Shown here piece after piece: positions 17,638 through 23,510 of a DNA stretch of 64,000 nucleotides (positions are counted from its first letter, which is position 1; each line of letters opens with the position of its first letter). The stretch comes from Bremerella volcania (GTDB lineage: Bacteria; Planctomycetota; Planctomycetia; Pirellulales; Pirellulaceae): the NCBI RefSeq assembly GCF_007748115.1, contig NZ_CP036289.1, forward strand, positions 5,766,001-5,830,000, read 5' to 3'. The notes under the pieces are model-generated. The model was not told the DNA's origin. It saw only the letters and a program-made list of their open reading frames with translations, and ran no database searches. A program made the position numbers and the translations under genes.

Positions 17638-18372
17638 CTACGCTTCGCGCTTCGTGCCGGTGAAGATGTAGTACGGCGTCTTGAACCATAACAAGTAAGG
17701 AACCTTGGCGCGATTCTCTTCCAGTTTGGTGGTTTCAAAGTGACGCTGCAAATAGGGAACGTGATCGCGTGACGGAAAGACATTGTCCGACGCGAACCAT
17801 ACCGGCCAAAAGCTTCGCGTGAACCAAGGATGACGCTTGAGCGACTCGTCGGGGAACTTTCGTGAAACGTAGAAATCAACCACGCCGATCGTTCCGCCTG
17901 GCTTCAAGATTCGCAGCGCGTTGTCAATTGCCGCGAACCAATCAGGGATCATCGTCAGCGAGTAAGAGAACGTCACGACGTCGGCGTAACCTTCGTCAGG
18001 CGTCCAGGTCGTGGCGTCCGCTTCCACCGTTTTCACGTTGTTCCAACCGCGCTGCTGGATGCGGTCGTCACACACCTTCAACAGCGACGAAGCCAGATCG
18101 ACCACGTATGCCTGTTTCAACTGGCCGACGCGATCGGAAATGAATTCCAGATTCGAGCCTGTACCGCCCCCCATATCGACCCACACGGCATCTTGCGGGG
18201 GTTCGATCGAGCGGTACATCTCTTCTCGCCCTTTGAGCAGGCGTTTGCGAAAATCGTCGTACGCGCCCGCCTGACCGCTGTAGAAACTATCAAGGCGCTC
18301 TGCGTGGTTGTCCCCTTTCACCGGCTTTACGGCCAGGTGATACAGGACTTTCAGGTCCGAAGCCAGACTCAT
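17638..18372 (-). CDS. btaB: Betaine-lipid N-methyltransferase BtaB
   Basis: A 244-residue class I SAM methyltransferase. SAM motif I is [14 protein letters not shown], the acidic residue following in AYVVDLASS, with [15 protein letters not shown] as motif III. The N-terminal [20 protein letters not shown] is characteristic of BtaB, which trimethylates diacylglyceryl-homoserine to the betaine lipid DGTS. It lies 27 nt after btaA, giving the usual btaA-btaB operon order. Confidence 0.88.
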
Positions 18373-18399: not shown

Positions 18400-19611
18400 T
18401 TAGGCAGCGATGTCCGCGATTCGGAACGCCCCGTAGGTGTGCACGCGATCCTTGACGTGAAGCTCGTCGGCCAGCTCCTGGTGATAGGTCAATAGTTCGC
18501 CGACCTGCTTTTTCTGACCCTTATGCGTGATCTCGACTTCGTCGATGAAGTCGGTGTTCAGGCCGCCTGTTCGCCAGATGATGCGGGCATCTTCTTCCCC
18601 TGCCAGTCGATTGGTAATTGCCTGCCATTCGTTTTCCAGGGCGAAGTAAAGCTTGTCGGTCAGCCAGTCTTGATGATCTAGAAGCACCAGGCGGTGAATC
18701 GGGTGACCGTTGTGCTTTTCGAGGAAGTGCTGCACCGAGTCGGTATGGGTACTGACCTTGTGGACCAGGCCATCCTTAAGCTTCTGGAAGTTCTCAGGCT
18801 TGAGGTATTCCGGACAACACTGTTCGGTGTATTGGCCGGTCACGTAGACGCGCCAGAAGTAGTTGTCTTGGATAGGCAGTTCGGCGAAGACGGCTCGCAT
18901 GTTGTCTTGCACGAAGTCGACGATGCCGTTGGAGTACTGCTTCTCCAGATGCTCGCGCTGGGCTCTTGGCACGCCGACCAGGCTCCACGTGGTATCTCGG
19001 CTCATCGCGAACTTGAGAGGTCCGGTCCACAGCTTGCGGTCGATGACCTCGAAGATTTCTTTCTGCTCGTCCAGCGACTTGGCATCCAACAGTTCGAGAA
19101 CCAGCGGTCGCATCCGCAGGACGTTCTCGACGTACATGTTCACCACCTTGGCGAACGCACCGGAAGTACCGCGGAAGTAGAAGCTGCGTTTCTTACGAGG
19201 GCGGAAGTACTTGATCTTCCGATCCCAGTAGCTGCGAGACCATTCTGGTAACGAACCACGCAGCTTCGATTTGTAGGCCTCTTTGAAGTCGAGCAACTGC
19301 CCTTTGCCAAACATGGAGAAGAAGTCTTCATACTCCAGGTTCTGGATGGCTGCTTTCTTGAGATCCAGCAGGGCGTTCTGCCGTGGATTCATGTCGACCG
19401 CATAAACATGGTTGGCACCGGCCAGAACGTAGTCGAGCGCGTTGCAACCAGCCGACGTAATGACCATCACATTGTGATGCGGTTGAATCTCCAGGGCGAC
19501 CCGATCCAAGCGGGGATCTTCCCAGCAGGTGTTGTACACTAAGTTGTTACGGTGAACGAAGTTAAAAACACGACCTCGAACCCAGCTAACCAATGCCATT
19601 GCGGCCCTCAA
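18400..19611 (-). CDS. btaA: SAM:diacylglycerol 3-amino-3-carboxypropyltransferase BtaA
   Basis: A 403-residue DUF3419 protein. The family block [16 protein letters not shown] is near the N-terminus, followed by the SAM-binding [15 protein letters not shown] and [33 protein letters not shown] and VLLDHQDWL lie toward the C-terminus. BtaA moves the aminocarboxypropyl group of SAM to diacylglycerol. With btaB next to it, the organism should make DGTS, a phosphorus-free lipid used under phosphate limitation. A start four codons later (MALVSW) is equally possible. Promoter and any Pho box would lie in 19612-19853; none was clear. Confidence 0.9.
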
Positions 19612-19853: not shown

Positions 19854-20756
19854 CTATCCTGATCTTCGCTCCGCTGGGCCATCCATTGCCAGAAAGAACT
19901 GCTCAGTGGTGAATTTTCGGAAAGCGGCCGCTAGCAGCTCCGAAATGTCTTCCGAAGGGGCGACCTCGATGACCGCTCCTTCGATCGACTGGGAAACGCT
20001 TAGTCCCTCGGTTAGCCGCACCAGCAGATGGTATTCCCAGCGAGAAAGAGGGACGCGACGGACGATATAGTCCCTCCGCGTTAAGGCCAGCCAGCTGGGT
20101 GTGGCTTCGGGAATGGCGGCCTGGGTATCTTGCTTGATCGCCGTGATGAAGTTGCTGATCGGGAACGGAAAGGAGTGCAGCCGTAGACAGGGCACCATCT
20201 GGAATTTAGCTTCGGCGAAAGACTCCGGCGAGATGCCTTCCAGCTGCGATGGCGAGAACACCTCTGCCTGCTCGATGCCGCGGCCGTCGAAGATGGCGTC
20301 GATACTGCGTTCGGCAACGGCAAGCCCCACCAGGAAGTCCTCGAACCCTAGCTGGTCCGTTCCTCGGGTTGGACTCGTCTCTTCCAGAAAATCGGGAAAC
20401 CGATCTCCCAGGCGGTTCAGCGTGTACGATCGAGACGGGTACTGCTGCAGATAGGTGATCGCAAACTGATCGAATAATTCGTCACCGACCGTCTTGGCAA
20501 ACAGGGGATAGATCGACTTCAAACACTCGACCAGCCGGGCATAGTAGGCGTGAGCGTACACTTCCAACCGCTGGGCGCTGGTTCGCCGCTGGCTGCGAGT
20601 AACGATCGACTCGATCTGCGACGCATCGACCGCGATGTGCTCTTGAGCTTCCGGCGAATGGACTCCTTCCGCCACGCCATTCACGTGGGTAATCACCGAC
20701 TGCATCCACTTTTGAAGCACCGGCAAGCTATGCAAACTCGGTTGGCCGTCGGTCAT
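19854..20756 (-). CDS. DUF2063 (BufC/HvfC-like) partner of the MNIO enzyme
   Basis: A 300-residue protein with the N-terminal DUF2063 region (YAHAYYARLVECLKSIYPLF and FAITYLQQYPSRSYTLNRLG) and a C-terminal part likely to be winged-helix-like. Proteins of this family sit next to DUF692 multinuclear iron oxidases and help recognise or deliver the precursor peptide (BufC/HvfC type). It begins 4 nt after the DUF692 stop, so the pair is tightly coupled. Third gene of a three-gene cassette with the Cys-rich peptide at 21706-22158. Confidence 0.85.
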   Translation of the reverse strand: MTDGQPSLHSLPVLQKWMQSVITHVNGVAEGVHSPEAQEHIAVDASQIESIVTRSQRRTSAQRLEVYAHAYYARLVECLKSIYPLFAKTVGDELFDQFAITYLQQYPSRSYTLNRLGDRFPDFLEETSPTRGTDQLGFEDFLVGLAVAERSIDAIFDGRGIEQAEVFSPSQLEGISPESFAEAKFQMVPCLRLHSFPFPISNFITAIKQDTQAAIPEATPSWLALTRRDYIVRRVPLSRWEYHLLVRLTEGLSVSQSIEGAVIEVAPSEDISELLAAAFRKFTTEQFFLAMDGPAERRSG

Positions 20757-20760
20757 CGCA

Positions 20761-21672
20761 TTAGCTCACTTCATGCTCGATACGATGTGCAGGATGCGGC
20801 ACGGGCGTGTGCCCCTGGTCCGCAGGTTCATCGGCCACAATCGTTTCCCCCTCGATAAAACGCTTCGCCTTGAGCACCTCGGCATGCAGCGTGGGGAAGT
20901 CGGGGATGTTGGCGTCCCATTCTAGCAGCGTCGAAACACCCCCAGTTCGTTCGTGAGCCAACCGATACAGCTTCCAAACCGGGTCGATCACGTGTCCGTC
21001 GTGCGTGTCGATGCAGTAGTCTCCCATGTTGGTGTGCCCTGCCAGGTGAAACTGAACAATGCTTTCCCACGGAAGATTCTCAATGTACTCGACTGGGTCA
21101 AAGTCATGATTCACGGCAGACACGTAAACGTTGTTCACATCCAGCAGTAGCCCGCATCCGGTCTCCTCGGTCAAAGCGGTCAGAAATTCCCATTCACTCA
21201 TCGTCGACGACGCGAAGGTGACGTAGCTGCTGGGATCTTCCAGAATCAGCGGACGCTCCAGATAGTCTTGCACCTGGCGAACCCGCCCAGCAACATGCTG
21301 AAGCGTTTCGTCGTTGTAAGGAATCGGCAGCAGGTCGTGCGTGTTCTGACCGGAAACGCCGGTCCAGCAGACATGATCGGAGATCCAACGGGCACCAATC
21401 GCCTGAGCAAGAGACTTCAGCTTGGCGAGGTACTCGAAGTCGAGCGGATCGGTGCTGCCAATCGAAAGCGAAACACCGTGCATAACGACCGGGTAACGCT
21501 CGGCGACCTGGTCGAGGACATACCGCGGACGTCCTTGCGAGTCGATGTAGTTCTCGGAGATGATCTCGAACCAGTCGACCCTGGGCCAGTGCTCGAGGAT
21601 ATAAGAGAAGTGGGGGGCGCGAAGTCCGACCCCCAGTCCCAGGTTTTCGTGGCCAAGCCGTGGCTGTGGCAT
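20761..21672 (-). CDS. DUF692 multinuclear non-heme iron oxidase (MNIO), BufB-like
   Basis: A 303-residue TIM-barrel enzyme. Conserved metal and structural blocks are all visible: [66 protein letters not shown] and [15 protein letters not shown] enzymes use two or three iron ions to oxidise cysteines of ribosomal peptides, for example to oxazolone/thioamide (MbnB) or thiooxazole (BufB). The gene begins 33 nt after a nine-cysteine exported peptide and is followed at 4 nt by its DUF2063 partner. The substrate is inferred to be that peptide. Confidence 0.92.
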
Positions 21673-21705
21673 CTTCGCTTCTCTGAGTGTTAGGCGTTCG
21701 TGATT

Positions 21706-22158
21706 CTAAGCGGCCGGTTCTGGAGCAGGATTCAACTCGACACCCTTTTCTTTCATCCGCTCTTCGAACAACTCACGGGCCTTCTTCCACATGCCGCCAC
21801 TCATGGGAACGTGACAGCCACCTTTGCCGGCACACTCGTTTGCCCCTGGCGTTTTACCGCAGCCCCCTTGTCCTTTGCAGTCATTGTGGCCACCGCAGAT
21901 GTGATGCTCGACCGTAGCACACGTACCGGCTCCGGCACATTCATTGGTCCCCTTGGCACCCTGGCCTTTGCATTCGTTCAATCCGCGACAAGCATGCTTG
22001 GCAACGGTGGATGTCCCATCGCCTTCGGCAGGGGCATCGCCGGTCGTCTTGGGAGCAGGCTGCGAACCGCAACCGATCGTCCCGGCCGCCATCATCCCGC
22101 TGAGGGCTGCCGCGGAAAGCTTATGGAAGTCGCGTCGGGTGTAATCTTTCTGAGACAT
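21706..22158 (-). CDS. Tat-exported nine-cysteine peptide, candidate MNIO-modified RiPP precursor
   Basis: A 150-residue protein. It starts with a twin-arginine signal (YTRRDFHKLS, then a hydrophobic stretch) ending near Cys30, possibly a lipoprotein site (TIGC). Residues 55-118 are a Gly/Cys-rich core with nine cysteines at 57, 63, 74, 80, 88, 94, 100, 109 and 115; five neighbouring pairs are exactly CX5C, embedded in repeats such as NECKGQG, NECAGAG and NECAGKG. A charged helix follows (WKKARELFEERMKEKG). The gene heads a cassette with DUF692 and DUF2063, the arrangement of bufferin-type copper-binding RiPPs. It does not look like the DUF2282 bufferins I know, so it may be a distinct precursor family. 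Copper or metal role is inferred. Confidence 0.8.
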   Translation of the reverse strand: MSQKDYTRRDFHKLSAAALSGMMAAGTIGCGSQPAPKTTGDAPAEGDGTSTVAKHACRGLNECKGQGAKGTNECAGAGTCATVEHHICGGHNDCKGQGGCGKTPGANECAGKGGCHVPMSGGMWKKARELFEERMKEKGVELNPAPEPAA

Positions 22159-22262: not shown

Positions 22263-23510
22263 TTAGCCGAAAAATTCGACTGTCGTCCGCACGGCATCGG
22301 CCAGCTTTTCGACCTCTTCGCGCGTGTTGTACAGATAGAAACTGGCTCGCACGCTTGCACTGATTCCTAGCTTCTTATGCAGCGGCAAGGTGCAGTGATG
22401 CCCCTCGCGAACGGCAATCCCGCGCCCATCGAGAAAGGTCGCGACGTCACTGGCGGCCAGGCCATCGATCACAAAGCTCACGATGCCTGCCTTCTTGCTC
22501 ACGTCCGGCCCCAAGATCTTCAGGCCTGGCACATCGGCCAATAGTTCGTGAGCGTACGCGGCCAACGATTGCTCGTGTTGCAGGATTCGAGCCAGGCCGA
22601 CTTGCTCCAGGTACTCAATCGCCGGCTTCATGGCAATCGCATCGGCGATCGGCGGCGTGCCGGCTTCAAACTTTGCCGGAAGCATCGCAGGCGTGAAGCG
22701 ATCGATCTCGACCACGTCGATCATGCTCCCCCCGCCCAAAAATGGCGGCATCTCTTCCAGCAACGCGTGTTTGCCGTACAAAACCCCCACGCCTGATGGC
22801 CCCAACATTTTATGGCCGCTGAATGCCACGAAATCGGCATCCCAACCACCCACATCGATCGCTTCATGCGGCACGGCCTGGGCGGCGTCGACCATCACCT
22901 TGGCTCCCACGGCATGGGCTTCCTTGGCAATTTCAGCGACGGGGTTGATGGTCCCTAAAACGTTTGAAACGGCTGCCAGTGCCACGATTTTGGTCCGCTC
23001 GGTCAGCAGTACGGAAAGGGAATCGAGATCGAGTTGGCCATCTGCGGTGACCGGAATCGCCCGAATCTTCGCCCCGGTTCGTTGAGCCAATTGCTGCCAC
23101 GGAACGAGGTTCGAGTGATGCTCCATCTCGGTCAGCAGAATTTCGTCCCCTGCCGTGACGTTGGCATCCCCCCAGCTACGCGCCACCAGGTTGATGCCCA
23201 TGGTGGTTCCGCTGGTGAAGATCACTTCGTTCTCGAACGCCGCACCGATGAACTGCTGCACGGCTCGCCGAGCTTCTTCAAACAAATCAGTCGATTCGCC
23301 ACTGAGCCGATGCGCGCCACGGTGCACATTCGCGTAATGCTTTTCATAGACATTACTTAGGCACTGGATCACCGAGTTGGGACGCTGGCTGCTGGCCCCG
23401 TTGTCGAGATAGACGAGGGGATGCTGTTCTTCGTCAACCTGGTGCAGAATTGGGAAATCGGCCCGGATGCGCTGGACATCCAATTGCGATTCCACGTCAA
23501 AAGTGGCCAT
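22263..23510 (-). CDS. sufS: Group II cysteine desulfurase SufS
   Basis: A 415-residue PLP enzyme of the SufS/CsdA type that takes sulfur from cysteine as persulfide. Visible are VYLDNGASSQRPNSVI, TSGTTMGINLVA, MEHHSNLVPW, VDAAQAVPHEAI, the PLP lysine in AFSGHKMLGPSGVGVLYG and the catalytic cysteine region VREGHHCTLPLHKKLG. Ends in a standard position with no other suf gene in the window. The Cys-rich peptide gene follows 104 nt downstream on the same strand; whether they are co-transcribed is unclear. Confidence 0.93.
   Translation of the reverse strand: MATFDVESQLDVQRIRADFPILHQVDEEQHPLVYLDNGASSQRPNSVIQCLSNVYEKHYANVHRGAHRLSGESTDLFEEARRAVQQFIGAAFENEVIFTSGTTMGINLVARSWGDANVTAGDEILLTEMEHHSNLVPWQQLAQRTGAKIRAIPVTADGQLDLDSLSVLLTERTKIVALAAVSNVLGTINPVAEIAKEAHAVGAKVMVDAAQAVPHEAIDVGGWDADFVAFSGHKMLGPSGVGVLYGKHALLEEMPPFLGGGSMIDVVEIDRFTPAMLPAKFEAGTPPIADAIAMKPAIEYLEQVGLARILQHEQSLAAYAHELLADVPGLKILGPDVSKKAGIVSFVIDGLAASDVATFLDGRGIAVREGHHCTLPLHKKLGISASVRASFYLYNTREEVEKLADAVRTTVEFFG

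Follow-up and report, generated by a model that had tools for sequence, protein, structure and literature searches.

The window analysed here is a 64,000-nucleotide stretch of the Bremerella volcania genome. On its minus strand, three open reading frames encode in turn a 150-residue cysteine-rich peptide, a DUF692 (MNIO) enzyme and a DUF2063 protein (Table 1). A first-pass annotation had described this cassette, without its strand, as having gaps of 33 nt (peptide to MNIO) and 4 nt (MNIO to DUF2063), and a peptide with a Tat signal, nine core cysteines and five CX5C pairs. All of this holds, as do the identities given to the two larger proteins (PF05114, E 1e-110; PF09836, 70.6 bits, above the cut-off of 27.2). 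The peptide has ten cysteines in total, the additional one being Cys30, in the lipobox-like TIGC that closes the Tat signal. All three genes are under purifying selection, with dN/dS values against three congeners of 0.044–0.084 for the peptide, 0.042–0.061 for the MNIO and 0.124–0.166 for the DUF2063 gene. A Class V aminotransferase gene (22263–23510, minus strand; PF00266, 487 bits), a SufS-like cysteine desulfurase by resemblance, lies on that strand too, ending 104 nt before the peptide gene starts, and is not among the genes that recur in two or more genera. On the other side of the cassette are a DUF3419 protein (18400–19611, minus; PF11899, 384 bits) and then a methyltransferase (17638–18372, minus), which we take to resemble the BtaA-BtaB betaine-lipid pair.

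Table 1. Features of the cassette, in positions of the window.
Feature	Position	Strand	Basis
Precursor, 150 aa: Tat signal, lipobox-like Cys and reduced 9-Cys core, best read as BufA2-type bufferin/captophorin	21706..22158	-	TIGR01409 over cut-off; NF050166 24.8 bits, under 60; 9/12 Cys columns
Tat signal, residues 1-30, TRRDFHK motif, ending at lipobox-like T-I-G-C30	22069..22158	-	R8, R9 and F11 in 31/31 tail-type homologues; lipobox-like Cys in 25/31
Nine-Cys core with five CX5C pairs, residues 57-115	21814..21990	-	Cys spacing, joint alignment
C-terminal tail, residues 118-150 (P118, W124, A127, R128, F131, E132, P146), predicted helix 121-137	21709..21807	-	Conservation; model
MNIO (DUF692, PF05114), BufB-type maturase, 303 aa	20761..21672	-	PF05114, MNIO_BufB; sole PF05114 match in genome
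DUF2063 (PF09836) partner, PME-type 1 (BufC-like), 300 aa	19854..20756	-	PF09836 over cut-off; NF050145 HvfC 42.5 bits, under 142

The core cysteines of the peptide are residues 57, 63, 74, 80, 88, 94, 100, 109 and 115, and only 18 of 20,000 shuffles of the core reach five CX5C pairs (shuffle mean 1.13). No Pfam family matches the peptide up to E 10, so that DUF2282 (PF10048) is absent. The BufA2 model (NCBIfam NF050166) matches it with an E-value of 1.8e-5, at a score short of the cut-off. Homologues were taken from contigs of named genomes (14 loci) and from 392 Planctomycetota genomes, giving 71 distinct proteins. From these, 31 with the C-terminal tail (tail-type; picked for the tail and not for the signal) and 27 without it were aligned, the other 13 being near-duplicates (L067, L071), cut-off sequences (L027, L037) and distant or overlong frames (L009, twice, L010 to L015, and L038). 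At E<=0.01 the BufA2 model matches 28 of the 31 tail-type members and all 27 of the others.

The joint core alignment has twelve cysteine columns, each occupied in 23–27 of the 27 tail-less members. Nine of these are kept in 28–31 of the 31 tail-type members; the third, fourth and tenth are occupied in 3, 3 and 0. The window peptide retains the nine and has lost columns 3, 4 and 10, so its core count is neither the 6 nor the 12 conserved cysteines expected of Buf2/BufA2. Its CX5C pairs have the CxGxNxC / CxGxGGC spacing of that type, while Cys-Lys occurs at only two of its nine core cysteines. Counted from the first core cysteine on, tail-type members have nine cysteines in 26 cases, eight in two (L068, L069), eleven in two (L016, L065) and thirteen in L073, where two fall outside the alignment columns. 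The intermediates L016, L065 and L073 combine the tail with cysteines 3 and 4; their BufA2 scores are 62.8, 51.3 and 39.8 bits respectively. The bridging homologue L016, over the BufA2 cut-off, has 11 core cysteines, the tail and the RRxF motif. On the strength of the cysteine columns and these intermediates, a 12-Cys Buf2 peptide in reduced form is the best reading of the window peptide, and the direction of change appears to be cysteine loss rather than gain.

The first-pass annotation had compared the peptide with DUF2282 bufferins (Buf1) and methanobactin precursors. The difference from the former stands, there being no DUF2282 match, but Buf2/BufA2 (the Cys-Lys captophorins) was missing from the comparison. 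Its suggestion of a possible new precursor class is not supported: the match in cysteine columns, the tail-bearing intermediates and the BufA2 matches led to its rejection as the main reading. The low BufA2 score, together with an MNIO that does not have the Asp reported for Cys-Lys enzymes, makes the peptide a divergent branch of Buf2/BufA2. Pfam matches among the 31 tail-type members are weak and scattered (PF24646, DUF7640, in five; PF10399, a Tat-signal model, in three; best E about 2e-4), and neither family matches the window peptide. A structure model built with 12 sequences gives no confident core fold (mean pLDDT 41.3, pTM 0.27). No plasmid or phage relatives of the peptide were found at E<=1e-4.

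The Tat pathway normally carries already-folded proteins, and its signals have a motif close to S/T-R-R-x-F-L-K before a hydrophobic stretch. The window peptide has such a motif and scores 20 bits with TIGR01409 (cut-off 16.7), where a Sec-type signal would be expected of Buf2; this assignment is made from the sequence motif. RRxF is present in all 31 tail-type members, with R8, R9 and F11 invariant, and in 12 of the 27 tail-less members. As a rough background, 95 other N-termini of signal- or TM-like character were taken from the window and L105–L124, and 7 of them have RRx[FLMIV]. TIGR01409 matches just 6 of the 31 at E<=0.01, so the family-wide assignment to Tat rests mainly on the invariant RRxF. 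The genome itself encodes TatC (PF00902, E 2e-57). The six tail-type members that do not have the lipobox-like cysteine have AxA-like ends as judged by eye, and L004 has tandem precursors, one with this cysteine and one without. Outside the Planctomycetota, the bufferin-like precursors of two Vicinamibacteria MAGs (L006, L007) start with KRRDF Tat-like signals; Tat-type motifs therefore extend beyond the phylum.

Within the tail, W..AR..FE...P is conserved among the tail-type members, with R128, E132 and P146 invariant and W124, A127 and F131 at 90% or more. The tail is absent from the 27 other aligned homologues. A helix is predicted for it, in a model of poor quality elsewhere (pLDDT 66, 72 and 61 across residues 121–150, and below 50 for residues 1–119). 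What is new here is the variant, defined by RRxF in 31 of 31, the lipobox-like cysteine in 25 of 31, the conserved, predicted W..AR..FE helix and a single MNIO clade of moderate support. Among the matches listed in searches of open-access papers that linked Tat export to bufferins, RiPPs or MNIOs, no Tat-routed bufferin was found; one matching paper cites Tat in its reference list only, and "tat" is not mentioned in the searched text of PMC12452194, PMC13097082 or PMC12636315. Hundreds more putative precursors are reportedly given in Table S2 of PMC12452194, which may include Tat-type peptides of this sort.

The MNIO, the only PF05114 protein of the genome, scores 366 bits with MNIO_BufB (NCBIfam; cut-off 310). 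As expected of a Buf2 locus, a bufferin-type MNIO and then a DUF2063/PME-type 1 protein follow the precursor. All of the 60 MNIOs compared share H65, H100, E145, N180, H209, D222, H224, E251 and D253 (window numbering), residues that form the metal site in MNIO structures and include the catalytic Asp. The residue following the catalytic Asp (equivalent to BufB2-Asp251) is Ala in the window enzyme (EWDANIP), not Asp. In the text of PMC13097082 the residue adjacent to the catalytic Asp is given as Asp in Cys-Lys enzymes and Phe in Lys-Cys enzymes. Other homologues have Asp, Glu, Gln or Ser here. Tracking of Cys-Lys content by this residue was considered and gave no clean match across the homologues: Ala adjoins both Cys-Lys-poor and Cys-Lys-rich precursors (the latter at L018 and L104), so the Asp/Phe rule fails to sort the Planctomycetota MNIOs.

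In a tree of 54 MNIOs (the 60 less five with no precursor just upstream and one duplicate), those beside tail-type precursors form one side of a single, moderately supported branch (82/71; 82% of bootstrap trees). Each of the 29 MNIOs on the tail side pairs with an RR-bearing precursor, and the tree requires four or more changes of Tat state, two ambiguous rows being left uncounted. The DUF2063 protein has no meaningful match among PDB sequences (best E 0.41).

Among the 392 phylum genomes the peptide is found in 60 and an MNIO match in 110. MNIO is present in 58 of the 60 peptide-bearing genomes, against 110 of 392 overall (Fisher 8e-36, uncorrected for kinship); the two without it, G221 and G252, are 72% and 68% complete. 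For the 40 genomes of the same class or nearer, a strong MNIO (E <= 8.7e-105) accompanies the peptide in 25 of 25, while of the 15 without the peptide 12 have no MNIO and three have a divergent one. There are 74 peptide places, at 58 of which the MNIO follows the peptide in the same orientation, no more than 2.5 kb away. It is within 2.5 kb in another arrangement at four and far away at one, and at the remaining 11 there is no strong MNIO on the contig, some of these places being at contig ends. The BufA2 model matches in 38 of the 392 genomes, over its cut-off in 11. It matched in none of 14 control genomes, including that of Caulobacter vibrioides, a species with reported Buf2, and these BufA2 counts may therefore be low.

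As a check, the first-pass annotation had proposed a search for Cys-repeat homologues always beside DUF692/DUF2063, and had named homologues lacking DUF692 as evidence against a substrate role. An MNIO accompanies the peptide in 58 of 60 genomes and follows it closely at 58 of 74 places, and the trio recurs in 12 of 12 genera. Homologues with no strong DUF692 match on the contig do exist at the 11 places, for example an intact orphan peptide on contig C27 of G216 (L115), but in just the two incomplete genomes is the enzyme missing altogether. On contig C9 of G216 (L117, 4971–8053) is an MNIO with the same EWDA motif, with a VWA-domain protein upstream and no such precursor.

The comparison of neighbourhoods covered 12 genera with 20 stretches, the window being one of them (L117, having no peptide, was left out). 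Peptide, MNIO and DUF2063 recur in all 12 genera. Besides these and shadow frames of the cassette, only scattered frames recur, each in two or three of the 12 genera and none in more than three. No recurrent copper-linked neighbour of the cassette was found in the 12 genera; the recurring frames were judged by eye, a minority of them also against Pfam. In G321 (L122, 7935–11924) the order is peptide, MNIO, DoxX (PF07681, 73.3 bits), second peptide and DUF2063. Both precursors there bear RR, the first with eight cysteines and no lipobox-like cysteine and the second with it. Relatives of this DoxX flank five other loci (L008, L027, L041, L094 and L104); a blastp search with it found none in the window. 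DoxX is described as a core bufferin gene in PMC12452194. The synteny, with the trio in every genus and MNIO in 58 of 60 genomes, lends good support to the earlier proposal that the peptide is an MNIO substrate, and it is probably a metal-chelating RiPP.

The three genes very probably make a small, cysteine-rich, chemically modified protein, predicted to be a metal-binding lipoprotein, from a known family of copper-buffering peptides. We read them with reasonable confidence as a Buf2-line bufferin (captophorin) operon in its minimal form, bufA-bufB-bufC, working by modification, export and copper binding. This is based on the co-occurrence with MNIO, the gene order, the BufA2 matches, the cysteine columns, L016 and the MNIO_BufB score, as well as the DoxX inside the G321 cluster and the chemistry of Buf1 and Buf2 in PMC12452194, where Buf1 bears Cu-binding thiooxazoles and Caulobacter Buf2 shows the same mass loss per cysteine and a 305 nm band. 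The precursor would be made in the cytosol and held there by the DUF2063 partner while the MNIO oxidises core cysteines, with 5-thiooxazoles as the most likely product (a change of about -4 Da per cysteine). The modified precursor would then leave through the Tat pathway, Cys30 would be lipidated and the signal cut off, leaving the peptide anchored on the outside of a membrane, where it may bind copper (Cu(I)/Cu(II)) and buffer copper stress. Points against this are the BufA2 score of 24.8 against 60 bits, the Ala at the MNIO site, the two Cys-Lys in nine, the lack of a recurring copper-linked gene, the 6 of 31 reached by TIGR01409, the 16 of 74 places with no MNIO just downstream and the poor core model.

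The same cassette and chemistry might instead serve against a metal or stress other than copper, such as gold, mercury, zinc, iron or oxidants. The neighbourhoods, with their lack of a recurring copper-linked gene, and the gold-induced bufferin operons and MerC fusions discussed in PMC12452194 are consistent with this, but the members that have been studied (Buf1, Caulobacter Buf2, oxazolin and captophorins) are tied to copper in PMC12452194 and PMC13097082, and this alternative is considered unlikely. A truly new class of MNIO precursor with different chemistry, for example partial cysteine modification or another product, is less likely again: the sub-threshold BufA2 score, the Ala at the specificity site and the tail missing from 27 other homologues would fit it, whereas the nine shared columns, the tail-bearing intermediates (one over the BufA2 cut-off), the MNIO_BufB score and the presence of the same Ala beside the Cys-Lys-rich precursors of L018 and L104 do not. 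That the peptide is an unmodified lipoprotein, metallothionein-like or disulfide-bonded, with the MNIO as a mere neighbour, is highly improbable given the conserved gene order and the strong MNIO in 25 of 25 peptide-bearing relatives against any, divergent, in 3 of 15 peptide-free ones, even with some homologues, such as that of the intact locus G216:C27, that have no MNIO on their contig.

Within the bufferin operon reading, the signal bears on a problem raised by the survey authors. Bufferins in print are Sec-exported, and some mechanism must hold back export of the precursor until it has been modified; their speculation is that the signal may stay hidden by the partner protein until the precursor is fully modified (PMC12452194). 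Tat export is proposed here as an alternative or an added safeguard. Tentatively, the Planctomycetia and their relatives might use Tat because the cargo is finished and compact, with MNIO-DUF2063 modification gating export, the tail helix docking with or proof-reading for the maturase, and loss of cysteines 3, 4 and 10 giving a smaller, lipid-anchored copper site. If such gating is real, the premature-export problem of Sec-routed bufferins would be solved. Tat routing thus offers a testable answer to how bufferins avoid premature export, and the Tat-type motif in every aligned tail-type member, with the repeated changes of Tat state on the MNIO tree, provides a natural experiment on it. As RiPPs, bufferins/captophorins are very widespread. 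The subfamily described here is a distinct one in the Planctomycetota, a phylum to which the main texts of PMC12452194 and PMC13097082 make no reference by name.

Among known systems, the DAG-RiPPs (DybA, NedA) have an MNIO-modified precursor with a lipoprotein signal; the account of them in PMC12636315 is based on lipoprotein signals for signal peptidase II, with no mention of Tat. Six-cysteine precursors before DUF692 and DUF2063 are reported from gammaproteobacterial clusters (PMC8692599). Buf1 (DUF2282) shares an MNIO, a DUF2063 partner and an exported cysteine peptide, but has four conserved cysteines (PMC12452194) to the nine of the window peptide. Buf_EGKCG / oxazolin / fontiphorin, the Lys-Cys captophorins, are alike in MNIO and PME1, cysteine repeats and a copper role; their EGKCG repeats are absent from the window peptide. 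The closest system is Buf2/BufA2, the 12-Cys type named Buf_6/12Cys in PMC12452194 and Cys-Lys captophorins in PMC13097082. The window peptide differs from it in three lost cysteines, few Cys-Lys, a Tat-type rather than a Sec signal and the C-terminal W..AR..FE helix, predicted from the model, and the locus in the Ala at the MNIO site and in having no DoxX relative by blastp. Lipoprotein signals are reported in about 16% of Buf2 (PMC12452194). The order precursor-MNIO-DUF2063, the CxGxNxC and CxGxGGC repeats and nine of the twelve cysteine columns are common to both.
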